DNA from: Cyclobacteriaceae bacterium
GTDB taxonomy: Bacteria > Bacteroidota > Bacteroidia > Cytophagales > Cyclobacteriaceae
Direction of reading: 5' to 3'
Assembly: GCA_019638235.1 (NCBI GenBank)
Contig: JAHBUE010000002.1
Location: 1 to 64,000 of the forward strand
Length of the DNA stretch: 64,000 nt
Part shown: in pieces, positions 19,070-35,571 of the stretch
How positions within the stretch are numbered: position 1 is the stretch's first letter
Layout: each line of letters opens with the position of its first letter
Program-made: the position numbers and the translations under genes
The notes under the pieces: model-generated
What the model saw: the letters and a program-made list of their open reading frames with translations, nothing else
Databases searched by the model: none
Told to the model about the DNA's origin: nothing

Positions 19070-19112
19070 CAGAAAAAACTATTTTTGTTACCAAAATAAG
19101 CCTTACACTTAT

Positions 19113-19177
19113 GGCGCAAAGCCAACATAAAGCGGTTGGATTGGCGCAGTTTTGTGAGGGGTATAAACGAGTTACCG
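19113..19177 (+). other. Attachment-like site at the left end of the cassette array (attI candidate)
   Basis: GTTACCG at 19171-19177 has the form of an integron core site (G/TT cleavage form), and GTTACCGGC here is the exact reverse complement of GCCGGTAAC at 25503-25511, the opening of the first downstream attC-like site. No 132-bp folded partner exists to its left, which is what is expected of an attI rather than an attC. An imperfect hairpin (19113-19126 with 19135-19147) lies just upstream. The identification as attI is inference from position between the recombinase stub and the first cassette. Confidence 0.5.
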
Positions 19178-19386
19178 GCAAGTGTAACAGACTACAATGC
19201 TAACATTAAACGGACGACCAAAATTTGAACATTAACACAAGAGCAAACCATTTTGAAAAGTGGTCAAAACATAGACCTTATTATTAACGGACAACGAGCC
19301 CTCGACACGTTGACCAACCTATGTTTTTTATTTTTTTTCCAACACACCCGAACGAAAAAATTTATACCTTTGCAGACAGATAATAT

Positions 19387-19758
19387 ATGACAAGACAAAT
19401 TTCCATAATGCTGATAGTGATGCTTGGTTTCTTTTTGACACCAACGCTGACTTACGCTTGTGGCAAATCTCACACACAAACTGAAAAATCTTGTTGCGAC
19501 AAAAAAACTTCACAGACAGACAAAAATGACTGTTGCAAAAATAAAAATTCGCATAACCAAAAAGACAATGACGATTGTGGTGGCAAATGCGGACATTCAT
19601 CTTGCCATTGCCCTACAGTTAGTTTTAGTTTTATTCCTTCTACACCTGAACTCAAATACAACTTATTAGTTGTTGCTCAAAAACAATTCTTTCTTTATTC
19701 AGACCCATACATTTCTTCGGGTTATCACTCCATTTGGCAACCGCCTAAAATAAGCTAA
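19387..19758 (+). CDS. Secreted Cys-rich protein of the copper cassette
   Basis: A 123-residue protein with signal peptide MTRQISIMLIVMLGFFLTPTLTYA, cut before CGK. The mature N-terminal half has nine Cys in pairs and triplets (SCCD, DCCK, GKCGHSSCHCP) with many Lys, Asp and His, suggesting metal binding in the periplasm. The C-terminal 50 residues lack Cys. I do not recognise a named family; proteins of this look occur beside copper or silver resistance genes in Bacteroidota. It is the first gene of the 6.5 kb copper cassette. Confidence 0.75.
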   Translation: MTRQISIMLIVMLGFFLTPTLTYACGKSHTQTEKSCCDKKTSQTDKNDCCKNKNSHNQKDNDDCGGKCGHSSCHCPTVSFSFIPSTPELKYNLLVVAQKQFFLYSDPYISSGYHSIWQPPKIS

Positions 19759-19790
19759 TTTCTTACCTTGACAGCCATAGCTGTGTCCTA

Positions 19791-19815
19791 TTGAAAGCGA
19801 TTTAAAGGCTTTCAA
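19791..19815 (+). other. Intergenic hairpin between Cys-rich gene and HMA gene
   Basis: Perfect 8-bp stem TTGAAAGC/GCTTTCAA (19791-19798 with 19808-19815) with a 9-nt loop, 35 bases before the next ATG. It has no long T tail, so it is more likely an mRNA-processing or attenuation hairpin than a strong terminator. Confidence 0.4.
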
Positions 19816-19850
19816 AGTTTAAGTAATTTAGTAATCTAAAATTTTAAAAA

Positions 19851-20699
19851 ATGAAATCATTAAAATATATAATGACTGCATTGGTAATGTTGTCATTCGG
19901 AATGAGCAACGCTCAAATCAAAAACGCCAAAACCGAAACCGTAAAAATTTACGGCAATTGCGGAATGTGTGAAACCACCATAGAAAATGCAGGAAATGTA
20001 AAGAAAGTAGCCCAAGTGGATTGGAACAAAGACACAAAAATGGCTACCATTACCTACGATGCAAAAAAGACCAATCAGAACGAAATCCTGAAACGTATTG
20101 CTTTAGCTGGCTATGACAGTGATAAATTCCTTGCTCCTGACGATGTTTATGCAAAGTTGCCTGAATGTTGCCTGTACGAACGGGTGAACAAACCTGTCGC
20201 AAAAACAGAACCGAAAACGGAAACACACGACCATTCAAGTCATACGGCATCTACAGAAATGCAGGAAGCAAACCAACTGACATCTGTTTTTAACAACTAT
20301 TTTTCGGTAAAAGATGCATTGGTAAAATCTGACGGAAACACCACTTCCACTAAAGCAAAAGACTTGCTGACGGCTCTTGGTGCGGTGCAAATGAATAAGC
20401 TTTCTAACGAGGAACATACGGTTTGGATGAAAGTAATGAAAGACCTTGCCTTTGATGCAGAACACATTGCTGAAACCAAAGATGTGGCACATCAGCGAGA
20501 CCATTTTATGAGCCTTTCAAAAAATATGTACGAACTGATAAAAGTTTCAAAACAGGAAACGCCTGTTTATTATCAACATTGCCCAATGGCGAACAAAGGC
20601 AAGGGAGCAAATTGGTTGAGCAAAGAAAATGCGATTAAAAACCCCTATTACGGTTCACAAATGCTAACTTGTGGTAGTACAGTTGAAACTATAAAATAA
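19851..20699 (+). CDS. Periplasmic HMA-domain protein with DUF3347
   Basis: 282 residues with signal peptide ending SFGMSNA-QIKNA. A heavy-metal-associated domain spans about 25-95 with the metal motif YGNCGMCETTIENAG (GNCGMC binding loop). A His/Thr-rich linker (HDHSSH) leads to a DUF3347 domain at about 135-230, which is common on periplasmic copper/silver efflux adaptors. The C-terminus carries further Cys/Met/His (YQHCPMANKGKGANWL, LTCG). It likely collects Cu+ or Ag+ in the periplasm and hands it to the ATPase/oxidase system encoded next. Confidence 0.88.
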   Translation: MKSLKYIMTALVMLSFGMSNAQIKNAKTETVKIYGNCGMCETTIENAGNVKKVAQVDWNKDTKMATITYDAKKTNQNEILKRIALAGYDSDKFLAPDDVYAKLPECCLYERVNKPVAKTEPKTETHDHSSHTASTEMQEANQLTSVFNNYFSVKDALVKSDGNTTSTKAKDLLTALGAVQMNKLSNEEHTVWMKVMKDLAFDAEHIAETKDVAHQRDHFMSLSKNMYELIKVSKQETPVYYQHCPMANKGKGANWLSKENAIKNPYYGSQMLTCGSTVETIK

Positions 20700-20705
20700 C
20701 CAAAG

Positions 20706-20740
20706 AAGCAATGAAGTGATAAAATCCATCTTCATTGCTT
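20706..20740 (+). terminator. Hairpin between HMA gene and copper ATPase gene
   Basis: Perfect 11-bp inverted repeat AAGCAATGAAG (20706-20716) with CTTCATTGCTT (20730-20740), followed by TTTTC-like sequence and the ATPase ATG 17 bases later. It could be a partial terminator tuning expression between the two genes, or an RNA stability element. Confidence 0.5.
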
Positions 20741-20757
20741 TTCAAAACTAAAATAGT

Positions 20758-22905
20758 ATGAAAAAATATACTTGTCCGATGCACCCGCAGGTGATGAAGG
20801 ACGAACCGGGGAAATGTCCGCTTTGCGGAATGGATTTAGTTCCGATGGGAGGAGCAAAAAAAGAAGCTCACAGCCATCACGGACACCATCAACATCACGA
20901 CCACAAAGAACATTCGCATCATAGTGAAAATCATAATCAGCATTCCGATAGTGGCTATGACAAACACGAAGGACATCATACCCACGATTTTCTCAAACGC
21001 TTTTGGATAAGCTTAATCATTACCGTGCCTATTTTGCTGTTATCTGAAATGATACAGGAATGGTTTGGTTTCACGGTTGTTTTTCCAGGAGATAAATATG
21101 TATTGCTGGTATTGGGAACTATTATGTATATCTATGGCGGAATGCCATTTCTGAAAGGAATGGTAGGCGAAATTAAAGCCAAAGCCATCGGAATGATGAC
21201 ACTGGTAGCAATCGCTATTTCAGTCGCTTACATCTATTCAGTTGCCGTTGTTTTTGGATTGCCCGGTATGGACTTCTTTTGGGAACTGGCAACCCTTATC
21301 GTGATTATGCTTTTGGGACATTGGCTGGAAATGCGTTCTACTATGGCAGCTTCAAAAGCATTGCAGTCATTGGTGGCACTTTTACCAAACGATGTTACGG
21401 TGGAGCGAAATGGTGAAGCCATAAAAATAAAACTCGAAGACCTAAAAAACGGTGAAACCATTATCATCAAACCCGGTGAAAAAATTCCTGCCGATGGAAC
21501 GATTGTTGATGGCGTTTCGTACGTAAACGAAAGTATGCTCACAGGCGAAAGTGTTCCGGTAAAAAAAGAAAAGGACGGAAAAGTAATTGCAGGTTCTATC
21601 AATGGCGAAGGTGCGTTAAGAGTTACGGCAACGGGAGTAGGAAAAGACAGTTATCTGAATAAGGTTATTAATTTAGTTCAGGATGCACAGGCAGCAAAAT
21701 CGAATACGCAAAACCTTGCCGATAAAGTAGCTAAATGGCTTACTTACATTGCCATTGCAGTAGGCGTAATCACGTTTATTTATTGGTTTGGCAGTAGCGG
21801 AGATATTGCTTTTGCTTTGGAAAGAATGGTTACGGTAATGGTTACGGCTTGTCCACACGCTTTGGGTGTGGCTATTCCGTTGGTGGTTGCCATTTCTACA
21901 ACGCTTTCGGCAACCAATGGTTTGCTCATCCGCAACCGTACCGCTTTTGAAACCACACGAAAACTATCCACGATAATTTTTGACAAAACAGGAACGCTAA
22001 CCCAAGGTTCTCACGCTGTGGAAAAGGTTATTCCACTGACCGATAAATATGCTGCCGATGAAATGATACAGTATGCAGCAGCCGTTCAGCAATATTCCGA
22101 ACACCACATTGCGAAAGGTATTTTAAAAACGTTGAAAGAAAGAAACCTTGAACTATGGAAGTCGGAGAATTTCAGTTATATGGCTGGTATAGGTGTAAAA
22201 GCAGTAGTACACGGAAAAGAAGTTGTAGCGGCAGGACCTAATTATTTCAAACAAAACAATCTTACAGAGCCTGAAACACCAAAAGAAATCAATCAAAGCA
22301 TTGAAACAGTCAATTATGTTTTTATTGACGGTGAAGTTATCGGCATTATTACCTTGGCAGACAGTATCCGTGAGGGTTCGCAAGAAGCCATTGACCAGTT
22401 AAGACAGATGAATATCAAATCCATTCTACTTACAGGCGACAATGAAAAAATTGCGGCAGCCGTATCTCTACAATTAGGAATGGACGGTTATATCGCCAAT
22501 GTATTGCCTCACGAAAAGCAGGAAAAAATAAAGGAATATCAAGCCAAAGGGGAAGTGGTTGCGATGACCGGAGATGGCGTGAATGATGCACCTGCACTGG
22601 CACAGGCAGATGTCGGTATTGCGGTAGGTTCAGGTACGGATGTAGCAGCCGAAACAGCCGATATTATTTTGGTAAACAGCGACCCAAGAGATGTAGTAAA
22701 AATGATTGACTTCGGTAAACGGACATATAAAAAAATGGTTCAAAATCTGCTTTGGGCAGTTGGTTACAATGTGATTGCCATTCCACTTGCAGCAGGTGTG
22801 CTTTATCCGAATTTCGTTTTAAGTCCTGCAATGGGTGCGGTTTTGATGAGCGTAAGTACAATTGTGGTTGCGATTAATGCAAGCCTTTTAAAAATTAATA
22901 AATGA
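20758..22905 (+). CDS. copB: CopB-type copper/silver P1B-ATPase
   Basis: 715 residues. The N-terminus has the heavy-metal-binding motif YTCPMHPQVMKDEPGKCPLCGMDL (split here as YTCPMHPQ and CPLCGMDLVPMGG), then a His-rich stretch (about 35-75). Catalytic features: TGES in the actuator domain near 260, intramembrane ACPHALG near 364-370, DKTGTLTQG with phosphorylated Asp near 409, and TGDGVNDAPAL near 604. The CPH rather than CPC metal motif places it with P1B-3 CopB exporters of Cu2+/Ag+ (or Cu+). It exports metal from the cytoplasm to the periplasm, where the downstream oxidase can act. Confidence 0.95.
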   Translation: MKKYTCPMHPQVMKDEPGKCPLCGMDLVPMGGAKKEAHSHHGHHQHHDHKEHSHHSENHNQHSDSGYDKHEGHHTHDFLKRFWISLIITVPILLLSEMIQEWFGFTVVFPGDKYVLLVLGTIMYIYGGMPFLKGMVGEIKAKAIGMMTLVAIAISVAYIYSVAVVFGLPGMDFFWELATLIVIMLLGHWLEMRSTMAASKALQSLVALLPNDVTVERNGEAIKIKLEDLKNGETIIIKPGEKIPADGTIVDGVSYVNESMLTGESVPVKKEKDGKVIAGSINGEGALRVTATGVGKDSYLNKVINLVQDAQAAKSNTQNLADKVAKWLTYIAIAVGVITFIYWFGSSGDIAFALERMVTVMVTACPHALGVAIPLVVAISTTLSATNGLLIRNRTAFETTRKLSTIIFDKTGTLTQGSHAVEKVIPLTDKYAADEMIQYAAAVQQYSEHHIAKGILKTLKERNLELWKSENFSYMAGIGVKAVVHGKEVVAAGPNYFKQNNLTEPETPKEINQSIETVNYVFIDGEVIGIITLADSIREGSQEAIDQLRQMNIKSILLTGDNEKIAAAVSLQLGMDGYIANVLPHEKQEKIKEYQAKGEVVAMTGDGVNDAPALAQADVGIAVGSGTDVAAETADIILVNSDPRDVVKMIDFGKRTYKKMVQNLLWAVGYNVIAIPLAAGVLYPNFVLSPAMGAVLMSVSTIVVAINASLLKINK

Positions 22906-22912
22906 AATGAGC

Positions 22913-22961
22913 CATAAAATTTTTCGAGTAATTTATTCTAACTGCGATGAAAAATTTTATG
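22913..22961 (+). other. Long-loop inverted repeat between ATPase and oxidase genes
   Basis: Perfect 12-bp arms CATAAAATTTTT (22913-22924) and AAAAATTTTATG (22950-22961) with a 25-nt loop. The arms are AT-rich, so folding would be weak. Position between two co-directional genes suggests an RNA stability or attenuation role; a DNA-binding site is an alternative. Confidence 0.4.
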
Positions 22962-22985
22962 ACGAATTACATGTGACAAAAAACA

Positions 22986-25283
22986 ATGAAATTAACACAT
23001 GAAAATTCTGAAATGGATATACAAAGTATTTTTCAAAAAAAGCTGTTGCCGATAGCACTGATGCTCCTAGCAACAACTTCTCTTTTCGCACAGAAAGTAG
23101 TGCGATACGATTTGTATGTAAAAGACACATTGGTAAACTTTGCCGGAAAAGAAAAAAGAGCCATTGCAGTAAACGGTCAAATTCCGATGCCAACACTCAC
23201 TTTTACAGAGGGCGATACTGCTGAAATTGTGGTACACAACCAGCTAAAAGAAAGTACATCACTACATTGGCACGGAGTATTTTTGCCCAATAAAGAAGAT
23301 GGTGTGCCTTGGCTTACACAAAAACCTATTGAACCCGGTACAACTTACACGTATCGTTTTCCAATCATCCAAAACGGGACACATTGGTATCATTCCCATT
23401 CGGGTTTGCAAGAACAAATTGGAATGTATGGCAATTTTGTGATGCTAAAAAAGCAAAACGACCCAACTTTTAGAAAAGGCATCGATGATTTACCAACCGT
23501 TCCCCTGATGATAAGCGAGTGGACAAATTATAATCCCAATAACATCAATCGAATGTTGCACAATGCCAACGATTGGGCAGCCATTAAAAAAAATGCAACA
23601 CAGTCATACGCAGAAGCTATTCGGGAAGGACATTTTAAAACAAAAATCAGGAACGAATGGAAACGGATGTTGGCGATGGACGTAAGTGATGTGTATTATG
23701 ATAAAATTCTACTCAACGGAAATCACACAACCGATTTAAAAACGGTTGACGGAAAAACCTTGAAAGCAGGTGATAAAGTAAGATTAAGAGTTTCAAACGG
23801 TGGAGCTTCGTCCTATTTTTGGTTGCGGTATGCAGGCGGTAAAATTACCGTAGTTGCCAATGACGGCAATGATGTAGAACCTGTTGAAGTGGACAGGTTG
23901 ATTATTGCGGTTTCTGAAACTTATGATATTGTTGTTACCATTCCTGATGACGGTGTTGCTTACGAATTTTTGGCAACCACCGAAGACAGAACACAATCTG
24001 CAAGCTATTTTATTGGAAACGGCATCAAGCAATTAATTTCCCCACTTCCAACATTGAAATATTTTGAAGGGATGAAAATGATGAACGATATGATGAAAAT
24101 GAATGGCGATCTGGACGATATGGGAATGAAAATGAGCCTGAACCAAATGGATATGAACGTGGTAATGTATCCCGAAATAACAGGAGAAGCGAAGCAAAAA
24201 CAAAAGCACGACCATAGTCAGCACAATATGGACAACGACCCAAACCGCTACAATGCCAACGAATTAGGAGAAATAAAGACCCTGAATTATGCAATGTTGC
24301 AATCGCCACATAATACAGAACTTCCTAAAGATGCTCCGGTGAAAGAATTGAAATTTACGCTTACCGGAAATATGAACCGCTATGTGTGGAGTATGGATAA
24401 TAGAATACTTTCGGAAGTGGATAAAATTCCTGTGAAGAAAGGAGAAATTCTACGCATCACGATATACAATAACTCTATGATGCGACATCCGATGCACTTG
24501 CACGGTTTTGATTTTAGAGTAATCAATGGTAAAGGCGAAAATGCTCCTCTCAAAAATGTATTGGATATTATGCCAATGGAAACCGATACCATCGAGTTTT
24601 TGGCAAATGAAGAAGGCGATTGGTTTTTTCACTGCCATATCTTATACCATATGATGGGCGGAATGAATAGAGTTTTTGCAGTTGATGACTATCAAAATCC
24701 ACACTTACCCAACAAGAAACAAGCCTACAATAAATTGCAAAGAGAAAGTAATATGCTGCACTTTATGATTGAAAATGATTTTGCAACCAATGGGAACGAT
24801 GGTGAAGCAATGGTTCAAAATGCAAGATGGAGTTTGGGTACAGAATGGCGGTTGGGCTATAATGATATGCACGGCTACGAAGTAGAAACGCATTTGGGAC
24901 GATACATCGGCAAAATGCAATGGTTTATGCCGTTTATTGGTTTTGATTACCGATACCGAAAAATGGGAATGGACGAACACGAAACAAACTTATTCAGACA
25001 AAAGAATGAAAAAGATACACGCAGAGCTGTTAGTTTAGGTTTTATGTACACCCTGCCAATGCTCGTTAACTTTCAGGCAGAAGTATATCACGATGGAATT
25101 GTCCGATTGTCTTTGATGCGTGAAGACATTCCGATTTCAAAAAGAATAAGAGCAGGTTTTATGGTCAATACCGATTTTGAATATATGGCTGAACTAAAAT
25201 ACATTATCAATAAAAATATGGGAATACGAACACATTATGACAGCGATATGGGATTTGGAGTTGGACTATCATTGAATTATTAA
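22986..25283 (+). CDS. Multicopper oxidase fused to a CopB-like outer membrane beta-barrel
   Basis: 765 residues; start could also be the ATG at 23013 (MDIQSIFQKK). Signal peptide ends SLFAQ. Cupredoxin copper ligands are visible: LHWHGVFLP, THWYHSHSGLQEQ, RHPMHLHGFDFR, FFHCHILYHMMGGM, the complete type 1/2/3 set of CopA-like oxidases. A Met/His-rich loop (MKMMNDMMKMNGD, near 360-405) resembles the Cu+-binding insert of CueO/CopA. After about residue 585 the sequence changes to alternating, Tyr/Phe/Gly-rich strands ending GFGVGLSLNY, i.e. a CopB-type barrel (PF05275-like) fused in the same chain. Expected role: oxidising Cu+ and resisting copper at the outer membrane. Confidence 0.88.
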   Translation: MKLTHENSEMDIQSIFQKKLLPIALMLLATTSLFAQKVVRYDLYVKDTLVNFAGKEKRAIAVNGQIPMPTLTFTEGDTAEIVVHNQLKESTSLHWHGVFLPNKEDGVPWLTQKPIEPGTTYTYRFPIIQNGTHWYHSHSGLQEQIGMYGNFVMLKKQNDPTFRKGIDDLPTVPLMISEWTNYNPNNINRMLHNANDWAAIKKNATQSYAEAIREGHFKTKIRNEWKRMLAMDVSDVYYDKILLNGNHTTDLKTVDGKTLKAGDKVRLRVSNGGASSYFWLRYAGGKITVVANDGNDVEPVEVDRLIIAVSETYDIVVTIPDDGVAYEFLATTEDRTQSASYFIGNGIKQLISPLPTLKYFEGMKMMNDMMKMNGDLDDMGMKMSLNQMDMNVVMYPEITGEAKQKQKHDHSQHNMDNDPNRYNANELGEIKTLNYAMLQSPHNTELPKDAPVKELKFTLTGNMNRYVWSMDNRILSEVDKIPVKKGEILRITIYNNSMMRHPMHLHGFDFRVINGKGENAPLKNVLDIMPMETDTIEFLANEEGDWFFHCHILYHMMGGMNRVFAVDDYQNPHLPNKKQAYNKLQRESNMLHFMIENDFATNGNDGEAMVQNARWSLGTEWRLGYNDMHGYEVETHLGRYIGKMQWFMPFIGFDYRYRKMGMDEHETNLFRQKNEKDTRRAVSLGFMYTLPMLVNFQAEVYHDGIVRLSLMREDIPISKRIRAGFMVNTDFEYMAELKYIINKNMGIRTHYDSDMGFGVGLSLNY

Positions 25284-25293
25284 AACCCATCAA

Positions 25294-25360
25294 TTGCAAG
25301 CACATTGCCAAAGCCACACAAGCCAACGCTCAAACCAAAGCTTTGGCAAAGAGCTTGCAA
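25294..25360 (+). other. Large hairpin downstream of the multicopper oxidase gene
   Basis: Arms 25294-25314 and 25340-25360 match at 19 of 21 positions, with a 25-nt loop. No T tract follows. The stretch from here to 25504 has no convincing gene. It may end the copper transcript, or be the relic of an older attC-like stem; the arm content (GCCAAAGC) resembles the L boxes of the array's sites. Confidence 0.4.
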
Positions 25361-25504
25361 AGCCGACTCAAGACAAAATTGTTTTAAAAAAATTCCCGAC
25401 CCTTCAAAAAAAATTAAAAAACGTAACACACAACCGACCCGACAATGACACAAAAAACTCAATACTGACAATGGTTTGCAAAGACTGGCAGACAGAACAC
25501 CAGC

Positions 25505-25637
25505 CGGTAACAAGGGTTTGGCGTAATGGCGGGCGAAGTGCTTCGTATGAAAGTTTTTGCTAAATTTGAACTTTGGTGCTTCGATTGAAGCGTAGTGCTA
25601 AAATGCCGCCACTACGCCAAGCCGCAAAACGTTATGC
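25505..25637 (+). repeat. attC-like site 1 (end of copper cassette)
   Basis: R'' CGGTAAC at 25505-25511 and R' GTTATGC at 25631-25637 bound 133 bp. Inner arms TTTGGCGTAATGGCGG and the complement of CCGCCACTACGCCAAG match at 14 of 16, giving the bulged cruciform of an attC. R'' is complementary to the core at 19171, R' to the R'' of site 2. The central loop has TTTGAACTTTGGTGCTTCG, a motif shared with the other sites. Confidence 0.82.
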
Positions 25638-25721
25638 GTCACCCTATCTGACCGCAAGTCCAGACTTCAACCGACAACAAAATTGAAAAAAATAACAAAA
25701 AAACATTGATAGTCAAAAACA

Positions 25722-25741
25722 ATATCGTAATATTGCAATAT
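25722..25741 (+). promoter_or_regulatory. ArsR operator upstream of arsR
   Basis: Imperfect palindrome beginning ATATCGTAATATTGCA, 17 bases before the arsR ATG. The same 16 bases recur at 26103-26118. The position and the form (AT-rich dyad of ArsR/SmtB type) indicate autorepression of arsR relieved by arsenite. Confidence 0.7.
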
Positions 25742-25757
25742 AAAAATTGAATAAGCA

Positions 25758-26084
25758 ATGGGAGCAACAAAAACAGAGCATTTTACAGACCGACAAAACC
25801 AAATTGCGACAATTGCCAAAGCATTGGGACATCCTGCGAGAATTGCAATTATTGAATATCTGATGAAAGTAAACGAATGTATTTGTGGCGACATTGTGAA
25901 CGAACTTCCTTTGGCTCAACCGACTGTTTCGCAACATTTGAAAGAATTAAAAAATGCTGGTATTATAAAAGGAAACATCGAAGGAAATTCAATTTGCTAT
26001 TGTATTGACGAAAAAACAATCGATATTCTAAATTCTTATTTCTCAATTATTGTACAAACCGTTACAAAAGCCAAATGCTGTTAA
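25758..26084 (+). CDS. arsR: ArsR-family arsenite-responsive repressor
   Basis: 108-residue winged-helix repressor. The recognition helix region LAQPTVSQHLKELKNAGII is typical. Cys residues that could bind As(III) are in NECICGDIV (about 37-41), CYCID and the C-terminal KCC. It starts the arsenic operon, with identical operator sequences on both sides of the gene, so it probably controls itself and, independently, the downstream genes. Confidence 0.93.
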   Translation: MGATKTEHFTDRQNQIATIAKALGHPARIAIIEYLMKVNECICGDIVNELPLAQPTVSQHLKELKNAGIIKGNIEGNSICYCIDEKTIDILNSYFSIIVQTVTKAKCC

Positions 26085-26102
26085 GCATTTTTTTGACATT
26101 AT

Positions 26103-26118
26103 ATATCGTAATATTGCA
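26103..26118 (+). promoter_or_regulatory. Second ArsR operator between arsR and the efflux genes
   Basis: ATATCGTAATATTGCA is an exact 16-base copy of the sequence at 25722-25737, in the 58-base gap between arsR and the DUF6428 gene. This suggests an internal ArsR-controlled promoter that lets the transport/reduction genes respond separately. Confidence 0.65.
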
Positions 26119-26142
26119 TTAAACAAATAAACTAAAAATAAG

Positions 26143-26595
26143 ATGAAATTATCAAGCGTAAAGCAGATTTTACCGACATTGGAAAATATTGAATTCCAAC
26201 TCGAAACCGGAACTTTTGTTCCCGAACATTTTCACGTAACAGAAGTGGGAATGATTACCAAAAACTTCATTGATTGTGGAGGTGTAATCCGTACAGAAAA
26301 AGTGGTAAACTTTCAGTTATGGAACGCAAATGATTATGAACACCGTTTAAAACCAAACAAATTGCTCAACATCATCAAACTTTCGGAAGAAAAATTAGGT
26401 ATCGAAGATTTGGAAATTGAAGTGGAATACCAAAGCGACACTATTGGGAAATATGATTTAGAATTTAATGGAAAAACCTTTTTACTGAAAAGTAAAACAA
26501 CGGCTTGTTTGGCACAAGACGCTTGCGGAATTCCGACAGAAAAGCAAAACGTTCAAACCTCTTCTTCTTGTACACCTAATAGCGGTTGTTGTTAA
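26143..26595 (+). CDS. DUF6428 family arsenic-operon protein
   Basis: 150 residues, soluble, no signal. The body has [19 protein letters not shown] near residue 28-46, typical of DUF6428 proteins found in Bacteroidota arsenic operons. The C-terminus is Cys-rich (CLAQDACG ... [10 protein letters not shown]), which suggests arsenite or thiol-metal binding; a metallochaperone-like role is an inference. It lies 4 bases upstream of the acr3 gene. Confidence 0.85.
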
Positions 26596-26599
26596 AAAT

Positions 26600-27673
26600 A
26601 TGCAAGTACGATTAAAATTTTTAGACCGTTATCTTACACTTTGGATTTTCTTGGCAATGGCAATCGGTGTTGGTTTGGGATATTTTTTTCCAAGTATTCC
26701 CGACAGTATTAACTTGGTTTCTGTAGGGACAACCAATATTCCTTTGGCAATTGGTTTGATTTTAATGATGTATCCGCCATTAGCAAAAGTGGATTATTCC
26801 TTATTACCCAAAGCATTAAAAGATAAAAAAGTAATTGGAATATCTCTATTTCTTAATTGGTTTGTTGGTACAATACTGATGTTCGGATTAGCCGTTTTGT
26901 TTTTACGAAACGAACCCGATTATATGACAGGCTTAATACTGATAGGTTTGGCAAGATGTATAGCAATGGTAATTGTTTGGAGTGATTTGGCAAAAGCAAA
27001 CAGAGAATACACAGCTATGTTAGTTGCATTAAACAGCATCTTCCAGGTACTTTCTTATAGCTTCTTAGTTTGGTTGTTTATTAATGTATTACCGAGCAAG
27101 TTAGGATTAGCAAATTTCAATGTAAGTGTGTCAATGAAAGATGTTACAGAAAGCGTATTGATATACTTAGGTATTCCATTCTTAGCAGGTTTTTTAAGTC
27201 GATATTTTTTGGTAAAATCAAAAGGTATAGAATGGTATAACAGAAAATTTGTACCTACAATTTCACCCATTACATTATATGCTTTACTATTTACTATAGT
27301 ATTAATGTTCAGCTTAAAAGGTAATAAAATTGTGGAATTGCCATTTGATGTTTTAAAAATAGCCGTTCCGCTTGTAATTTATTTTATACTAATGTTTTTC
27401 GTGAGTTTCTTTATCAATATGGCGTTAAAAATACCTTATGATAAAAATGCTTCAATATCATTTACCGCCACAGGAAATAATTTTGAATTAGCTATTGCCG
27501 TTGCAATCGCTGTTTTCGGCATAAATTCTCCGCAAGCATTTGTCGGTGTTATTGGTCCTTTGGTAGAGGTTCCCGTTTTAATATTGTTAGTAAAAATCAG
27601 CTTATTTCTCAAACAAAATATTACTCAAAATGAAAAAGAAAATTTTAGTGCTTTGCACAGGAAACAGTTGTAG
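26600..27673 (+). CDS. acr3: ACR3-family arsenite efflux permease
   Basis: 357-residue inner membrane protein with about ten hydrophobic helices. The conserved ACR3 motifs are present: [19 protein letters not shown] with the essential Cys near residue 117, and [20 protein letters not shown] with the conserved Asn-rich discontinuous helix. It exports As(III) using the proton gradient. The last 44 bases overlap arsC, an unusually long overlap; the tail (after LFLKQN) is hydrophilic. Confidence 0.95.
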
Positions 27674-28046
27674 AAGTCAAATCGCAGAAGGATATTTAAG
27701 ACATTTCGCAGGACAAAAAGCAGAAATTTATAGTGCCGGTGTGGAAACTCACGGTGTAAATCCCAAAGCAATTACAACAATGAAAGATGACGGAATTGAC
27801 ATTTCAAATCATACCTCAAACAACATTGACGAATATCGAAATATAGATTTTGAATTCGTAATTACGGTTTGTGACAACGCCAAAGAACGCTGTCCATTCT
27901 TCCCTACCAAAGCTCAAAAATTTCATTACAATTTTCCTGACCCAGCAAAAGCGACAGGAACGGACGAGGAAGTGAAAGAACAGTTTCGACAAGTTCGACA
28001 AATGATAAAAGATTACTGCAAAACGTTTGTCGAACAAAATTTGTAA
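27630..28046 (+). CDS. arsC: Thioredoxin-type arsenate reductase (LMW phosphatase fold)
   Basis: 138 residues. The P-loop [17 protein letters not shown] holds the nucleophilic Cys (residue 9) and Cys14 (CxxxxxR loop); later Cys residues in [12 protein letters not shown] provide the redox relay, and the general acid Asp is in FPDPAKATG. It reduces As(V) to As(III) for export by the upstream permease. Start overlaps acr3 by 44 bases. It is the last gene in the arsenic cassette; site 2 begins 23 bases after its stop. Confidence 0.95.
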
Positions 28047-28069
28047 CTTGCTAAACAAAAAGGGCGAAC

Positions 28070-28203
28070 GCATAACAGCGGTTTTGCAAGATTGCGGAGT
28101 TAGTGCTTAAATTAAGGTTTTTGCATATCTTTGAACTTTAGTGCTTAACCGAAAGTTTCGGCTTCGTTAGTCCGCAACCTCGCAAAGCCGCAACCCGTTA
28201 GTG
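28070..28203 (+). repeat. attC-like site 2 (end of arsenic cassette)
   Basis: R'' GCATAAC (28070-28076) and R' GTTAGTG (28197-28203), 134 bp. Arms GCGGTTTTGCAAGATTGCGG and the complement of the right side match at 17 of 20. R'' with its neighbours is the exact reverse complement of the cassette start GTTATGCGT at 25631. Confidence 0.85.
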
Positions 28204-28230
28204 GCAAGCTTATAAAGACAGAATTGAATT

Positions 28231-28839
28231 ATGGAAAAATTTTTAGAAAAACTATTTGACATTAATAAAATCCCGACAAAGTTAATCATTGTGATTTTGC
28301 TAAGTTCTGCTTTGATTTTATTTGTTCCTCAACAGTTTTTGACTAAACTAAATCTTGACGGCTTTCTTCATGACTATGGAAAATTTATTGGTATCTCTTT
28401 TATTGTAAGCTCTGGTTTTACACTAATTGCTTTATGGACTTATGTTACAAGACTTATAAGCAGACGCAGACTCTCAAAAAAAATTAAGGAAAGTATTATT
28501 AAAGACATCAACTATCTCGACTTCCATGAAAAAGCTTTGTTAAGAGAGTTTTTTATTAATGGAAAACATACATTACAATTGCCTTTTGACAATGACACGG
28601 TCGTAGGCTTAGTGAACAAGCATATAATTTATCAAGCTTCCAGCACAGGATTTACTTATTTGCATGGTGCTTATTTTCCTTATACAATTTCTGACATTGC
28701 TAATAAACACTTGACAAACAAAATTCTTGAATTACCCGAAAATCCGACTGAGGAGGAAAAACGGAAAATTTTAGACAGCAGACCAAATTGGGCTAAGGAG
28801 CGTAGTCGAATGGACGACTTGTTTAACTCAAGATGGTAA
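28231..28839 (+). CDS. Superinfection-exclusion protein B (SieB)-like membrane protein
   Basis: 202 residues: two hydrophobic helices (about 18-36 and 50-72), a basic stretch (RLISRRRLSKKIKES), then a cytoplasmic domain. The segment EKALLREFFINGKHTLQLP followed by a VVGLVNKHII stretch and a Tyr/Phe-rich end matches my knowledge of SieB-type proteins, which in phages block infection by related phages. As the only gene of its cassette it is a plausible anti-phage gene; the assignment rests on pattern memory, not alignment. Confidence 0.68.
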   Translation: MEKFLEKLFDINKIPTKLIIVILLSSALILFVPQQFLTKLNLDGFLHDYGKFIGISFIVSSGFTLIALWTYVTRLISRRRLSKKIKESIIKDINYLDFHEKALLREFFINGKHTLQLPFDNDTVVGLVNKHIIYQASSTGFTYLHGAYFPYTISDIANKHLTNKILELPENPTEEEKRKILDSRPNWAKERSRMDDLFNSRW

Positions 28840-28846
28840 AGCCAGC

Positions 28847-28978
28847 CACTAACACGGGTTTTGCGTCAGGCGGGCTGACGTGCAAACTTGGAGCTTTGTG
28901 CTTCTAATGAACTTTTGTAATAAATTGAAACTTTGTGCTCCGAAACCCGCCCGAACGCAAAGCCCGAAACCGTTAGCA
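28847..28978 (+). repeat. attC-like site 3 (end of SieB-like cassette)
   Basis: R'' CACTAAC (28847-28853) and R' GTTAGCA (28972-28978), 132 bp. Arms CGGGTTTTGCGTCAGGCGGG and the right complement match with one extra base on one side, as with extrahelical bases in attC. The opening GCCACTAAC is the reverse complement of the cassette start at 28197. Confidence 0.85.
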
Positions 28979-29000
28979 CACATAATAAAAGACGACCAGA

Positions 29001-30119
29001 ATGTATCTAATTGACAAAGAAAAAAATAGAATATCCAAACTGAAACAAATGACTTTTTCCGAACTGAAATTTAGGGAAAGAGAACATTTACAGGAATGGA
29101 TTGCTAACAACCCAAACTCACTTGGAGAAGAGCTTCTTATCATTCAAAAAGAGTTTAGCGGATTTAACGAGACAAATGAAAGACTTGACTTACTTGCATT
29201 AGACAAGCTTGGTAATCTTGTAATCATCGAAAACAAACTTGACGACTCGGGCAAAGACGTTACTTGGCAAGTAATTAAATACGCTTCCTATTGTGCAAGT
29301 TTGACAAAGCAGGACATCTTAAAAATTTACCAAGACTTTTTAGGCTCTAAAGCTGACGCACAGGAAATGATTTCGGAATTTTTCGACAATAGGGATATTT
29401 CTGAAATTGTGCTTAATCAAGGCTTAAACTCGCAAAGATTAATGTTGGTAGCCGCAAACTTCCGAAAAGAAGTTACATCTACCGTTTTATGGTTAATGAA
29501 CTTCAAAATAAGGTTGCAATGCTTTAAAGTGACACCTTTTGCTTTTGGAGAACAACTTTTCCTTAATGTAGAACAAATACTACCAACCAAAGACACAGAA
29601 GATTTTGCAATTAGCATAGCGACAAAAGCTCAGGAAGAAATTGAAGTCCAAGAATCTTTAAAAAACAGACATCTTGTAAGACTGAAATTTTGGGAACAAT
29701 TCATCAACGCAAGTAATCAAGTAAATCAACTTTTTGCAAATAACTCACCATCAAAAGAAAGTTGGATAGGCAAAGGCATCGGAATGAGTGGTGTAAACAT
29801 TAACCTTGCAATGAGTAATAACTATTGCAGAAGTGAGATAATTTTTAATCGTGGTAGCCAAGAAGAAAATAAAGAACTTTTTGACTTCATCTACCAAATG
29901 AAAGATAAAATAGAAAGTGATTTTGGCGGGCCTTTGACTTGGGAGCGTATGGACGACAAAATAACTTGCAGAATTAAATCCCAACTTGACGGTGTGAGTT
30001 ATTTTGAAGAAAGCGATTGGAAAAAAATGAACGAATTTCTAATTGACGTTTCAGTTCGGATGGAAAAAGCATTTAAAGAACCGATTAAAAAACTGAATAA
30101 CTATTGGAAAAACAAATAA
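29001..30119 (+). CDS. DUF4268-type protein with N-terminal PD-(D/E)XK nuclease-like domain
   Basis: 372 residues, soluble. Around residue 60-80 the sequence NERLDLLALDKLGNLVIIEN plus KLDDSG has the Asp-x(n)-Glu-x-Lys spacing of NucS/PD-(D/E)XK nucleases (D in LDLLALD, E and K in IIENK). The C-terminal third, with KFWEQF and the late block RSEIIFNRGSQEENKELFDF, resembles DUF4268. The function is unknown; such proteins are frequent near restriction and defence genes. It is the sole gene of its cassette. Confidence 0.75.
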   Translation: MYLIDKEKNRISKLKQMTFSELKFREREHLQEWIANNPNSLGEELLIIQKEFSGFNETNERLDLLALDKLGNLVIIENKLDDSGKDVTWQVIKYASYCASLTKQDILKIYQDFLGSKADAQEMISEFFDNRDISEIVLNQGLNSQRLMLVAANFRKEVTSTVLWLMNFKIRLQCFKVTPFAFGEQLFLNVEQILPTKDTEDFAISIATKAQEEIEVQESLKNRHLVRLKFWEQFINASNQVNQLFANNSPSKESWIGKGIGMSGVNINLAMSNNYCRSEIIFNRGSQEENKELFDFIYQMKDKIESDFGGPLTWERMDDKITCRIKSQLDGVSYFEESDWKKMNEFLIDVSVRMEKAFKEPIKKLNNYWKNK

Positions 30120-30126
30120 TTACGTG

Positions 30127-30258
30127 TGCTAACAGGCGTTTGGCTCAATGGCGGGTGACGTGGTTAATTGAACATTCTACCTCGCATCAACACTTGTGGT
30201 GTATTGACAGTTTTGTGCTCCGAAATCCGCCACTGCGCCAAGCGCCAAAACGTTATAT
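30127..30258 (+). repeat. attC-like site 4 (end of DUF4268 cassette)
   Basis: R'' TGCTAAC (30127-30133) and R' GTTATAT (30252-30258), 132 bp. Arms GGCGTTTGGCTCAATGGCGG and the right complement match at 17 of 20. The opening GTGTGCTAAC is the reverse complement of the cassette start GTTAGCACAC at 28972. The site is about 97 percent identical to site 6. Confidence 0.87.
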
Positions 30259-30279
30259 GCAAGTTGAAAAATCACTCGA

Positions 30280-30921
30280 ATGGAAAAAGGTGTTTTCGAA
30301 AAAAGTTTTATAGAAAAGCTAGATAAAAACTTTCCAGAATTAAGTAAATATTTTGAATTTAATCTGGAAATTTTCTGTGAGTTTAACACATTAATATTTG
30401 AGATAAACAAATGCTTAATTCTCGAATTTCACAGAGCTACAATAACGTTGACAAACAACTTACTAGAGCGACTTTTAAAACTTGCATTAATTAATAATGA
30501 GACAGGAATCGGACCGATACCGATTGAAAAATGGAATGAAGTATTCAAAGAACCAAATAGAAAATATGGCTCAATCCCTTTAGGAAATTCAATAGAAAAA
30601 TGCAAAAAACTTGGACTTCTATCTGAACAAGAAAAACACTTTCTATTCAATATAATTCGTGAATTAATGCGAAATGGATTCTCACACGCTGATTCAAGTA
30701 AAATCCTTGCTGATTTACCTGACAATTCACCAATGTTTCAAGGAAGTTTGACAAATCCAAATGCGGATTTAAAAGAAGTCGGGATAAATCAAAAAATCAT
30801 ACCGACTTTTCAAGCTTTACAAATGGAGAATTTTGCTAAAGAAAATGCTAAAGATTATTTTGATTTCGTTTTCCATTTAATTTTTCGAATTGAAGAACGT
30901 TTAAAAGAAAAACAGAAATAA
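30280..30921 (+). CDS. HEPN-like hypothetical protein
   Basis: 213 residues, all-alpha looking, no signal or membrane segment. The stretch IIRELMRNGFSHADSSK (about 127-143) has the R-N-x3-H pattern (RNGFSH) of HEPN ribonucleases and their relatives. No named family is recognised. As a single-gene cassette among defence-type genes, an RNase acting in abortive infection is a reasonable but unproved inference; there is no linked antitoxin gene. Confidence 0.6.
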   Translation: MEKGVFEKSFIEKLDKNFPELSKYFEFNLEIFCEFNTLIFEINKCLILEFHRATITLTNNLLERLLKLALINNETGIGPIPIEKWNEVFKEPNRKYGSIPLGNSIEKCKKLGLLSEQEKHFLFNIIRELMRNGFSHADSSKILADLPDNSPMFQGSLTNPNADLKEVGINQKIIPTFQALQMENFAKENAKDYFDFVFHLIFRIEERLKEKQK

Positions 30922-30928
30922 AACCTGC

Positions 30929-31061
30929 ATATAACACCGGCTATAGTTCATTGCTTCTGACTTTCCTCTCGGAAAGTTCTCGCAAATTTGCTATCTTCGG
31001 TTTACGGCGGAAAATCCTCGCGGATTTTCACGCAACGAAACCATAGCCAAACACGTTGTGT
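30929..31061 (+). repeat. attC-like site 5 (end of HEPN-like cassette)
   Basis: R'' ATATAAC (30929-30935) and R' GTTGTGT (31055-31061), 133 bp. The arms differ in sequence from the other sites (GGCTATAGTTCATTGC against GCAACGAAACCATAGCC) but keep length and form; an inner AT/GC-rich double hairpin fills the loop. The opening TGCATATAAC is the reverse complement of the cassette start at 30252. Confidence 0.8.
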
Positions 31062-31086
31062 GCCATTATATAAAGACCGTTGACAA

Positions 31087-31578
31087 ATGAGTATAGAGAA
31101 ACAAATAAACCAAGCAGAGACAAATCTGCAAAGAAAATTAGATTGGGTTGGACGACATGACAGCAGAACAACTTTTGTTGCAGGAATCTTAATTGCAATG
31201 CTTGGAGTTTTAGCTTCTTCAAGTTCTAAAGTTGAAGAATGGACAATATTTGCATATGTAGTTTTTGGAGTAACCGGAGTGACTTTAGCTGCTGGACTCT
31301 ATTTCATTTATAAATGCCAATTTCCACAAACAGAGTCTTCAAATAATTCATTAAATTATTTCGGGACAATTGCTGAAATGAAATTTGATGATTTCAAAAA
31401 GAAAACTCTAGGCTCATCGGACAAAGATTATTTGGAAGATATTCTATATCAAATCCATAGAAATTCTGTGATTCTAAAACTAAAATTCCAGTATCTTAAA
31501 TTAGCTTTAGTAATGTTGAGTATTTCAATTCTTCCATGGTTGGCATCAATTTATCTTTCCAACGAATACTTGAAATAA
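31087..31578 (+). CDS. Pycsar-type two-helix membrane effector (DUF5706-like)
   Basis: 163 residues. An N-terminal amphipathic helix leads to two hydrophobic segments (about 34-50 and 55-77), then a cytoplasmic loop with YFGTIAEMKFDDF and an ILYQIHRNSVILKLKFQYLK helix, then a last hydrophobic segment. This layout and the F-G-x(n)-Q-I-x-x-N-S pattern fit Pycsar membrane effectors that disrupt the inner membrane when cCMP or cUMP is made. Its stop overlaps the start of the cyclase gene by one base, so the two are coupled. Confidence 0.72.
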   Translation: MSIEKQINQAETNLQRKLDWVGRHDSRTTFVAGILIAMLGVLASSSSKVEEWTIFAYVVFGVTGVTLAAGLYFIYKCQFPQTESSNNSLNYFGTIAEMKFDDFKKKTLGSSDKDYLEDILYQIHRNSVILKLKFQYLKLALVMLSISILPWLASIYLSNEYLK

Positions 31579-32285
31579 TGGCAATATTAGATACTCTAGA
31601 AAGTGAAGTAAACTCAATTCTAAGCATAAGTTGGAATGAAAGAAATGGAACTGTCATTCCAGAGACAACAGACGTAGCGCTAAAAGATGGTGCTGTAAAA
31701 ATTGAAGCGACATTTCTTTATGCGGACTTGGCTGGTTCTTCGTTATTGGCAAAAACTTGTCCATGGCAGACGACAGCTAAAATCATTAGAACTTATCTTG
31801 ACACAGCTGTAAGACTAATTCGACATCATAATGGTGAAGTAAGAAGTTTTGATGGTGATAGAGTTATGGGAATTTTTAAGGGTCTCTATCCTAATACTTC
31901 GGCTGTGACATGTGCGAGAAATATAGACTGGGTTGTAACTAACATTATAAACCCTAAAGCAACAGAAAAATTTAAATCAATTAGAGATAACGACATAAAA
32001 ATCAAGCATTGTGTTGGTGTAGACACTAGTGAAGCACGAGCCGTTCGATCAGGAATTAGAAACTATAATGACTTGATTTGGATTGGTAAAGCTCCAGCGT
32101 TTGCAGCAAAATTATCAGACATTCGAGATTATCCCTATGAAGTTTATATTTCGAAAGAATGTTACAATAAACTTGCTGCGAGTGCTAAGAAAAATGGAAC
32201 CGAAGACGTTTGGACTGCTAAAGATGTGGTTATAAGTGGACAAACTCATACAGTTTATAGGTCTAAAACACTATTAAAACCATGA
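31578..32285 (+). CDS. Class III nucleotide cyclase, Pycsar cyclase-like
   Basis: The frame is open from 31536, but the ATG at 31578 overlaps the preceding stop (TAATG) and is taken as start, giving 235 residues. The cyclase domain has the first metal Asp in FLYADLAGSSLL (about 43-54), the second metal Asp in VRSFDGDRVMGIF (about 90), and the substrate-binding turn DLIWIGKAPAFAAKL (about 170). The compact stand-alone domain beside a membrane effector matches Pycsar systems, where PycC makes cCMP or cUMP on phage infection. Which base it uses cannot be told by eye. Confidence 0.78.
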   Translation: MAILDTLESEVNSILSISWNERNGTVIPETTDVALKDGAVKIEATFLYADLAGSSLLAKTCPWQTTAKIIRTYLDTAVRLIRHHNGEVRSFDGDRVMGIFKGLYPNTSAVTCARNIDWVVTNIINPKATEKFKSIRDNDIKIKHCVGVDTSEARAVRSGIRNYNDLIWIGKAPAFAAKLSDIRDYPYEVYISKECYNKLAASAKKNGTEDVWTAKDVVISGQTHTVYRSKTLLKP

Positions 32286-32295
32286 GAATAACGGC

Positions 32296-32427
32296 ACACA
32301 ACAGGCGTTTGGCTCAATGGCGGGTGAAGTGGTTAATTGAACATTCTACCTCGCATCAACTTTTGTGGTATATTGACAGTTTTGTGCTCCGAAATCCGCC
32401 ACTGCGCCAAGCGCCAAAACGTTAGCC
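32296..32427 (+). repeat. attC-like site 6 (end of Pycsar-like cassette, last site)
   Basis: R'' ACACAAC (32296-32302) and R' GTTAGCC (32421-32427), 132 bp. It differs from site 4 at only about four positions between the outer boxes. The opening GGCACACAAC is the reverse complement of the cassette start GTTGTGTGCC at 31055. No further site follows; the next unit begun here is interrupted after about 40 bases by the REP element. Confidence 0.87.
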
Positions 32428-32465
32428 ACAAGTGTACACCGACACCGCAAACAGACAGTCCAAAA

Positions 32466-32680
32466 CTCACACTGGCGCAAGCGTCCGCTTGTGCCATAAT
32501 CTTTAACTTTTAAATTTGGTGTGAATATTAGCTTTTATAGTACAATCATAAAGTTAAACACAAATCATCTTGTTGCACCAAAAGTTGGATTATGTACATG
32601 GTAATCCAGTAGTGGCGGTTTAGAAGTGCAAGAGATTATGCTGGTAAAAAAAGGATTGTTTGAAATATATTTTATTGGAT
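32466..32680 (+). repeat. REP/RAYT fragment, copy B
   Basis: 215 bp matching 18664-18877 with about eight substitutions and one inserted A. It begins with the same REP hairpin (32471-32495) and holds the same damaged RAYT C-terminus in the same direction, but lacks the right-hand REP that closes copy A. It lies 39 bases after the last attC-like site. The bases up to 32806 contain no visible gene. Confidence 0.78.
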
Positions 32681-35569: not shown

Positions 35570-35571
35570 AG

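Follow-up and report, generated by a model that had tools for sequence, protein, structure and literature searches.

An integron-type cassette array in a Bacteroidota genome, probably moved by a tyrosine recombinase without the IntI additional domain

Chromosomal (sedentary) integrons with IntI, such as those of Vibrio and Xanthomonas, resemble the locus described here in their arrays, AAC/GTT cores, hairpin arms, circle-closed cassettes, insertion at attI and accessory genes. The present system differs from them in having an integrase without the additional domain, an attI located 3′ of the gene, ten attI copies and many site locations. The IntI of the Treponema integron also carries the additional domain, and cassette insertion at attG sites is the subject of published work. 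Messier and Roy (2001) reportedly found that integrons cannot function without the additional domain. It is likewise regarded as essential in the available part of PMC8138268, which counts against the explanation preferred below. Archaeal integrons, according to the available text of PMC9668308, are similar to the present system in that attI lies immediately downstream of intI, whereas their IntI has the additional domain.

The "integron-like" simple tyrosine recombinases (Smyshlyaev et al. 2021, PMC8138268) share the sequence neighbourhood of IntI, but the accessible portion of that work describes no arrays for insertion-less members, a comparison made by description and not by protein. The delta-attI cassettes of mobile integrons (PMC12901181, as far as its text was available) likewise contain attI pieces away from the integrase; there the pieces lie inside cassettes, whereas here the copies head separate arrays of one genome. 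The preliminary description of this locus treated integrons as merely little described in the phylum. That view found no support in this form: one complete integron in Bacteroidetes proper, that of Salinibacter ruber, is published (PMC9024848, consulted in part), and canonical IntI exceeded the cut-off in 84/296 genomes of the GTDB phylum, of which 83 belong to classes other than that of the window. Among the matches listed from the open-licence PMC literature (which does not include bioRxiv), the text available held no description of Bacteroidota arrays that go with a recombinase lacking the domain, nor did the available part of PMC8946536.

Unit-specific ends of the six cassettes

The window, the whole 64,000-nucleotide stretch of Cyclobacteriaceae DNA that was analysed, contains the array set out in Table 1. 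By itself it holds at least two clustered attC-like sites (the CALIN criterion) and no adjoining integrase except a gene remnant.

Table 1. Features of the cassette array and its flanks, in window coordinates
Feature	Position	Strand	Description
Flanking repeat, 238 bp	18669..18906	.	left flank of array; ~25-nt inverted ends (GGCACAAGCG...)
Recombinase gene 3′-end remnant	18935..19069	+	last ~44 codons and stop; 96% identical to 3′ end of intact gene
attI-like site	19070..19173	+	crossover at GTT 19171-19173; TATAAACGA directly before
Array span	units start 19171, 25631, 28197, 28972, 30252, 31055; last site ends 32420		six same-direction units
Cassette 1	19171..25630	+	copper genes: HMA/DUF3347 protein, P-type ATPase, multicopper oxidase; plus 123-aa ORF
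attC-like site 1	25503..25640	.	end pairing, fold, family model
Cassette 2	25631..28196	+	arsR-type regulator, DUF6428, SBF-fold transporter (probably ACR3-like), LMW phosphatase fold (probably ArsC-like)
attC-like site 2	28068..28206	.	end pairing, fold, family model
Cassette 3	28197..28971	+	SieB-like superinfection-exclusion protein, 202 aa; PF14163, E 3.4e-30
attC-like site 3	28845..28981	.	end pairing, fold, family model
Cassette 4	28972..30251	+	DUF4268 protein; PADLOC candidate defence family PDC-S11, E 3.9e-155
attC-like site 4	30124..30261	.	end pairing, fold, family model; other genera have stretches of up to 98% identity
Cassette 5	30252..31054	+	213-aa protein
attC-like site 5, divergent	30926..31064	.	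10-nt end pairing
Cassette 6	31055..32420	+	Pycsar defence pair: PycTM effector 31087-31578, PycC cyclase within 31536-32285
attC-like site 6, last of array	32293..32430	.	end pairing, fold, family model
Second long copy of flanking repeat	32466..32680	.	96% identical, same orientation

AAC...GTT cores and an imperfect inverted repeat were found at the sites, although 5/44 and 7/56 of those listed had one end without a recognisable core. In all six cases the first 9, 9, 9, 10, 10 and 10 bases of units 1 to 6 (GTTACCGGC, GTTATGCGT, GTTAGTGGC, GTTAGCACAC, GTTATATGCA and GTTGTGTGCC, in order) recurred as an exact reverse complement where the 3′ site of the same unit opens, in agreement with the preliminary description; the chance of one such tag match within 170 nt is estimated at roughly 170/4^9. 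From the tag to the following GTT the sites were 127-129 nt long, and 137-139 nt long if the tag of the next unit is counted, against the 132-134 bp given there.

In three site sets, adjacent site pairs whose own-unit tags matched at no fewer than 5/6 bases numbered 11/16, 24/35 and 26/36, while about a third of the pairs (5/16, 11/35 and 10/36) had no match, perhaps owing to missed sites in between. For the core and pairing counts the own-genome set went from 45 to 44 sites (two cut by contig ends were removed and window site 5 was added by hand), and 4/60 sites of relatives were excluded, two as weak, one as partial and one as a duplicate stretch; pairs separated by more than 5 kb, and pairs in which no core could be recognised, did not enter the pairing counts. 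Tags paired within a site in 0/39, 3/49 and 10/72 cases, compared to an all-against-all background of about 7%. Pairing across units and not inside sites is, on the sequence evidence, the signature of circle-closed cassettes.

We give almost no credence to the idea that intergenic repeats, RNA hairpins, terminators or REP/MITE elements merely resemble attC here. The array is indeed flanked by REP/MITE-like palindromic repeats (a single second long copy, the right-hand one, turned up in the genome), and at the named loci within-site pairing (10/72) runs somewhat higher than background, but the tags pair mainly across units, boundaries fall at GTT, and an Rfam search of the window returned only a tRNA above threshold and no family matching the sites. 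The RNA hairpin, terminator and REP reading was rejected on these counts, and the RNA structure that the preliminary description had named as a possible source of the end pairing was not found.

Sites 1-4 and 6 match a common family model, by construction because these five built it, and their bottom strands fold into long hairpins with imperfect pairing. The model had no match to site 5, for which the further basis is its own inner arms (by eye) and one similar stretch, 75% identical, in another genome. Bottom-strand DNA folding energies of all six sites lay below the mean of random window segments, with those of sites 2, 5 and 6 not below the lowest of 100 such segments. Inspected by eye, the folds had an asymmetric spacer and a C.A mismatch, and no bulged (extrahelical) base, the kind of base that marks polarity in attC, was identified.

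The gene content of the units is given in Table 1. Cassette 1 is very large (6.46 kb), a point counted against the preferred explanation. The 213-aa protein of cassette 5 matched nothing in Pfam or PADLOC, and the pair in cassette 6 was recognised by profiles for PycC (E 5.5e-84) and PycTM (E 6.6e-28). A homologue (74%) of the cassette-4 gene in another genome had no obvious attC in the two stretches examined.

A 1,205-nt cassette occurs twice in the genome at 100% identity, directly after attI at C2:235518-236722 and after attC at C2:263387-264591, and the flanks of the two copies diverge at GTT. An identical cassette in two arrays indicates recent movement. Among the two or three matches listed per genome for 117 other genomes of the family, no two neighbouring window unit bodies were found together; units 2-6 were represented by single genes, by pieces of the arsenic operon (unit 2) or by site-only stretches ending at the crossover. 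Conserved unit order was rejected on this basis, and the always fixed gene order in relatives that had been proposed as evidence against a cassette array did not appear within these matches.

The attI-like site and the linked recombinase

The array head (18935-19173) consists of a cut-off recombinase 3′ end, matching positions 271-315 of TIGR02249 (E 2.5e-11), and an attI-like site. An intact recombinase gene encoding 344 aa (C1:1755562-1756596, minus strand) heads another array in the same genome, and many further attC-like sites are scattered over many places in it. The preliminary description included neither the remnant and attI directly 5′ of unit 1 nor the intact gene and the additional sites.

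This attI adjoins the recombinase gene and has a fixed crossover, G|TT. It is present in ten copies in the genome, whose sequences differ beyond the GTT, and all 9 of the 9 testable copies lead a unit with matching ends at a minimum of 6 bases. Two further attI types occupy four and two loci in the same genome. The attI motif also lies 3′ of the recombinase gene in other species, and the attI dyad was more symmetric than shuffles (a mean of 3.95 of 6 pairs vs 2.16), but with at least 5 pairs in only 24/61 sites. The dispersed attI copies are probably in use.

The recombinase matched PF00589 (E 6.8e-43) and fell below the TIGR02249 cut-off (204 bits vs 265). Across 38 sequences, residues R201, K226, H291, R294 and H317 did not vary and Y326 hardly did; we take these to be the catalytic R-K-H-R-H and Y of tyrosine recombinases. 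The additional domain of IntI, of about 40 residues (I2 helix, patch III region), is missing: 20-25 residues separate the anchors in 69/69 aligned relatives, compared to 62 residues in 19/19 IntI sequences. Sequences with stops were dropped from this alignment (1/20 IntI loci and 1/41 of the named loci, of which 41 of 80 entered), as were 3/30 family loci (the own copy and two with stops). Alignment to IntI4 (2a3v) skips the additional domain, and the predicted structure has no helix at 251-267.

XerA and archaeal XerC-like recombinases are chromosome-type resolvases that are not known to have cassette arrays. These enzymes (5hxy, 4a8e) were among the best matches of the recombinase both by sequence and by fold. 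A tree gave no firm branching order for the IntI clade and the domain-less rows, the latter lying on one side with a support of only 60/83, and the "array" label on 51 rows was given by recombinase similarity and not by an array seen at each row. Because all 69 aligned relatives are without the IntI domain, the enzyme is best described as not an IntI as defined, in a system that probably works like an integron. What is new, as judged here, is the enzyme: the recombinase of the array lacks the IntI domain, its attI lies 3′ of the gene and many attI copies are present in its own genome.

In IntI the missing domain reads hairpin landmarks, and its absence lends support to a version of the same system in which the recombinase acts on double-stranded attC and not on a folded single strand. 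We consider this version unlikely: arm sequences vary between sites while pairing tends to persist, and the shared cores and stems together with the kept pairing suit structure recognition. Stem covariation in 74 sites outside model building scored 0.264, compared to 0.114 for shuffles and at most 0.174 for slid controls; in the same sites, with the alignment fitted to the model, 54.4% of cells paired, against 56.4% in one slid control. The recombinase would read the folded bottom strand.

Recombinase and arrays across Bacteroidota

Among 80 loci collected by recombinase similarity, all 74 modelled sites (in 36 loci) were co-directional with the gene and 72/74 lay 3′ of it; the other 44 loci had no modelled site, many having little 3′ sequence. 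A modelled site lay 3′ of the gene, within the available stretch, at 8 of the 13 recombinase loci inspected, and in 7/8 the predicted cassette start fell 78-144 nt past the last aligned codon (one locus failed). The attI motif was present no more than 170 nt 3′ of the gene in 61/75 named loci (chance 28/3000 per 110 nt), and 40/49 testable heads paired with the downstream core at 6 or more bases. The earlier matches from which the motif was derived gave 19/59 loci (control 104/1180), and in the wider recombinase family 9/12 testable heads had paired ends, with identical counts at 6 and 7 bases; controls for these two sets probably overstate chance because they were drawn from those very loci and some may fall on true heads. 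Of 13 model-free chains, 5 had length 0; among 560 controls, 2 had length 1 and 558 had none.

Sites were found, own genome included, in 37/60 genomes of the family and 94/296 of the phylum. In the phylum sample they occurred in 30/35 recombinase-bearing genomes vs 64/261 others (Fisher p 2.4e-12). Canonical IntI ran in the opposite direction, with sites in 17/84 IntI genomes vs 77/212 without, and 77/94 site-bearing genomes had no canonical IntI; for the 17 genomes with both, the site model does not separate canonical attC from the present kind. No close recombinase was found at E<=1e-80 in 64/94 site-bearing phylum genomes. In the family, sites were present in 29/41 genomes with a recombinase relative vs 8/19 without, and 8/37 site-bearing genomes, one of them with 11 sites, had no relative even at E<=1e-40. 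Such genomes weigh against the explanation preferred below, although loss, action in trans or a more distant enzyme could account for them.

These last eight genomes are also what would be expected if ordinary integron cassettes (CALIN) had been placed by a canonical IntI elsewhere or since lost, the linked recombinase being a bystander. The attC-like sites, the occurrence of canonical IntI in the phylum and the possible trans mobilisation of CALIN cassettes (available text of PMC9668308) are in keeping with this; yet canonical IntI was found in 1/60 family genomes vs sites in 37/60, the domain-less recombinase stands at array heads with a conserved attI, and co-occurrence tracks that recombinase and not IntI. 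An IntI in the own genome was rejected, with no match over the cut-off, although a gap is possible because the genome is 99% complete. We judge this explanation improbable. That host XerC/XerD move the cassettes, with another role for the linked recombinase, is more doubtful still: the own genome has two Xer-type genes and Xer enzymes serve other mobile elements, but Xer genes are near-universal, whereas the arrays track the linked recombinase and attI adjoins that gene.

A model for the array and its meaning

Site anatomy, unit-specific pairing, a fixed attI boundary 3′ of the gene, recombinase-array linkage, the missing IntI domain and one identical cassette found twice are all read directly from the DNA. 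Taken together with the attI and the recombinase linkage, the end pairing bears out the integron-like array with attC-like sites first proposed for this locus. Very probably, it is an integron-type cassette array moved by a Bacteroidota tyrosine recombinase without the IntI additional domain, from attC-like hairpins to attI, and the linked recombinase is the likely agent of the reaction. Cassettes would be excised as circles at the hairpin sites and reinserted at the attI-like site by this enzyme. The gene would read towards its own attI, with the crossover about 70-145 nt past the last aligned codon, and cassettes would enter there in the same direction as the gene. The intact recombinase would act in trans on the ten attI copies, of which the one behind the cut-off gene end heads the window array.

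Surveys recognise IntI by profile or by the additional domain (PMC2426708, PMC9024848, both available in part), and arrays headed by domain-less recombinases would therefore probably be classed as headless or be overlooked. The acquisition of an I2-like domain has been put forward as a possible route to hairpin substrates (available part of PMC4792948); if the present recombinase is the actor, this idea needs revision or a second route. The domain-less family may show what integrases were like before the IntI domain was acquired, or independently of its acquisition.

We consider it likely that this is a second, widespread kind of integron in Bacteroidota, with hairpin cassettes moved without the IntI domain and attI copied about the genome, such that one enzyme serves many platforms. 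The paired heads of the wider family (9/12) and the plasmid copies in Chryseobacterium suggest a large overlooked cassette pool. If true, bacteria would have a second way to collect and swap genes, using an enzyme without the part held to define integron integrases, with many attI platforms per integrase in one genome and a reservoir of metal-resistance and phage-defence cassettes that is in some cases plasmid-borne.

Pairing of cassette ends and folding of the sites

The six units of the array are all encoded in the same direction and carry copper genes, an arsenic operon, a SieB-like protein, a PDC-S11 candidate defence, a 213-aa protein of unknown kind and a Pycsar pair. The preliminary description had proposed unit-specific end pairing, and this was borne out: in 6/6 units the opening 9-10 bases recur as a perfect reverse complement where that unit's own 3′ site begins, and the sequence differs from unit to unit. 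Sites 1-4 and 6 could be aligned, and folding gave long hairpins on the bottom strand with AAC/GTT cores and a lopsided spacer; a C·A mismatch was seen by eye in 5/5. Site 5 is divergent and was recognised by its 10-nt end pairing; one similar stretch was found, in another genome (G003).

A covariance model built from the five alignable sites, with rough E-values, was run on this genome, 60 Cyclobacteriaceae genomes and 296 Bacteroidota genomes. There were 49 matches in this genome at E≤1 (43 at E≤1e-3), while matches occurred in 37/60 family genomes (E≤1e-3) and 94/296 phylum genomes (E≤1e-8), both counts including this genome. Near-identical sites, up to 98%, were present in other genera. 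In 27/117 other genomes matches were confined to sites 3, 4 or 6 (two or three per genome among the matches listed), and most of these listed site-only matches stop no more than a few bases from the crossover.

Tags, the short end sequences of a unit, matched at ≥5/6 bases across the same unit in 11/16 adjacent pairs in this genome, 24/35 in family relatives and 26/36 at named loci, compared to 0/39, 3/49 and 10/72 within a site and 128/1720, 185/2704 and 407/5329 in all-against-all comparisons. An RNA or terminator hairpin would predict the opposite pattern, with pairing within the site and not across the unit, and an RNA-structure origin, which the preliminary description had raised against its own reading, was rejected. 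Stem arms covaried in 74 sites outside model building (score 0.264 versus 0.114 shuffled and ≤0.174 slid); with the alignment fitted to the model, paired cells in these sites reached only 54.4%, and one slid control 56.4%.

The two flanking repeats are the only long copies found in this genome, with shorter pieces elsewhere; if the two long copies recombined with each other, the array would be lost. In the window, AAGTGTACAC, a 10-mer, has only two + strand occurrences, one at 18926 immediately outside the recombinase remnant and one at 32430 immediately behind the last site; this may be chance.

Features of the array, its surroundings and related loci (C1 and C2, contigs of the 3.66-Mb genome; the window is C2:1-64000, and positions without a contig refer to it)
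Feature	Position	Strand or orientation	Remarks
Flanking repeat, copy 1	18669-18906	direct	215-238 bp, inverted ends; copies 96% identical
Recombinase remnant and attI-like stretch	18935-19173		directly 5′ of unit 1
Six units	19171-32420	all same direction
Flanking repeat, copy 2	32466-32680	direct	as copy 1
Type III restriction-modification genes (ResIII with RE_endonuc; N6_N4 methylase)	32807-38191	-	directly 3′ of array, opposite strand
Identical cassette, copy 1	C2:236722-235518		directly after attI
Identical cassette, copy 2	C2:263387-264591		after another attC
Intact recombinase gene	C1:1755562-1756596		344 aa; heads another array

Recombinase genes and attI-like heads

Unit 1 is preceded by the 3′ end of a tyrosine recombinase gene (its final ~44 codons), followed by 104 nt ending at GTT. 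Ten copies of this 104-nt attI-like stretch were found in the genome with a query cut at GTT, all matched to the last base with varying 5′ extents; separate comparisons showed that they diverge beyond GTT. All testable copies (9/9; the tenth, 27 nt from a contig end, was left out) lead a unit whose 3′ site has a matching tag of at least 6 bases. Two more attI-like head types occur in this genome, at four loci (L069, L070, L072, L073) and two loci (L076, L078), and at each a unit whose ends pair follows; L072 contains a stretch reading as the 3′-end remnant of another recombinase. The attI copies at L012, L013 and L015 have a common preceding stretch that by eye resembles the beginning of a glutathione-peroxidase-like gene; only one of the copies seems to have more of this gene next to it. 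This stretch may show how attI copies spread.

A modelled site lies 3′ of the gene at 8/13 recombinase loci, with the predicted cassette start 78-144 nt past the last aligned codon in 7/8. A scan for relatives provided 80 loci, the best of more, from Flavobacterium, Kaistella, Chryseobacterium, Algoriphagus, Cyclobacterium, Pedobacter, Galbibacter and many Bacteroidota MAGs; two MAG labels from non-Bacteroidota groups may be binning errors. One contig filed under an Azoarcus MAG (L113) holds the attI motif and the recombinase, the latter 74% identical, and is probably misbinned Bacteroidota. The model identified 74 sites in 36/80 loci, co-directional with the recombinase in 74/74 cases and 3′ of it in 72/74. 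The motif [AT]ATA[ATC]NNNAGTT, derived from 19/59 loci that pairing alone had identified (control 104/1180), was present at most 170 nt downstream of the gene in 61/75 sufficiently long loci (chance expectation 28/3000 per 110 nt), and 40/49 testable heads pair with a downstream core. Model-free chaining recovered at least one unit from 8/13 starts, including five units in F. limicola (controls 2/560).

Two Chryseobacterium plasmids (L201, L202) encode the recombinase (identities 66% and 65%), and most of the genes behind it point the same way. A paired unit was detected on one plasmid and none on the other. The existing annotation of one plasmid copy reads 'site-specific tyrosine recombinase/integron integrase'. 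Relatives at E≤1e-60 appear in 41 plasmid records (Acinetobacter 24, Klebsiella 4), with 46-51% identity among the matches listed.

Across the phylum, sites were found in 30/35 genomes with the recombinase (E≤1e-80) versus 64/261 without (p 2.4e-12). Canonical IntI showed no positive association with sites in the phylum sample (17/84 with IntI versus 77/212 without). The linkage does not hold everywhere: 64/94 of the phylum genomes with sites have no recombinase at this threshold, and in the family sites occur in 29/41 genomes that have a relative (E≤1e-40) and in 8/19 that have none. Arrays in genomes without a near recombinase could be served by more distant enzymes, left after loss, or acquired.

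Probable movement of a cassette

A 1,205-nt cassette is base-for-base identical in two arrays of this genome; a comparison of 31 units gave no other duplicate >200 nt. To the left of the two copies the sequences are different as far as GTT, and to the right they diverge immediately beyond GTT; a homologous duplication would not be expected to end at the crossover. Because no canonical IntI over cut-off was found in this genome, the simplest reading of the sequences is that the linked recombinase moved the cassette.

Relationship to integron integrases

The best NCBIfam match of the recombinase is NF040815 (223.9 bits, cut-off 220), and TIGR02249 scores 204 bits, in two stretches, below its cut-off of 265. 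Fixed anchors are separated by 62 residues in canonical IntI (19/19), compared to 20-25 in recombinase relatives (69/69 aligned, 51 close and 18 from a wider family) and 26 and 28 in two Xer proteins. Aligned to IntI4 (2a3v), the interval runs from residue 180 to 242 in 2a3v versus 246 to 266 in the recombinase, and the AlphaFold2 model of an 85%-identical protein (pLDDT 89, pTM 0.64) predicts no helix at 251-267. For residues 1-50 of the recombinase, modelled on L087, the prediction shows an additional N-terminal strand-helix domain, whose likeness to an arm-binding domain is limited to its outline; a Pfam search of these residues gave no match. Foldseek ranked XerA, archaeal Xer and IntI4 highest for the model.

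In the tree, IntI forms one clade (100/100) and 50/51 close recombinase relatives a second (95/98), which the wider Bacteroidota family surrounds; the order of these three groups is left unfixed. Heads in the wider family also pair (9/12 testable; control 45/720), so the system may extend into that family.

The literature comparison used excerpts of open-licence papers. An attI on the 3′ side of the integrase gene, as here, has been described from Treponema and from Archaea (PMC3607928, PMC9668308). The survey excerpt names one complete integron in Bacteroidetes proper, Salinibacter (PMC9024848); that of an attC study covers 11 modelled taxa, none Bacteroidota (PMC8352920), and that of a review places Bacteroidota among integron-bearing phyla without detail (PMC8618304). 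In further excerpts the additional domain is the criterion used for intI (PMC2426708), is called essential (PMC8138268) and is put forward as the step permitting single-stranded substrates (PMC4792948). Canonical IntI contains this domain, whereas the recombinase lacks it and, because this defining feature is absent, is not a member of the IntI-defined family. Taken together, the sequence data strongly support a model in which the system works like an integron.
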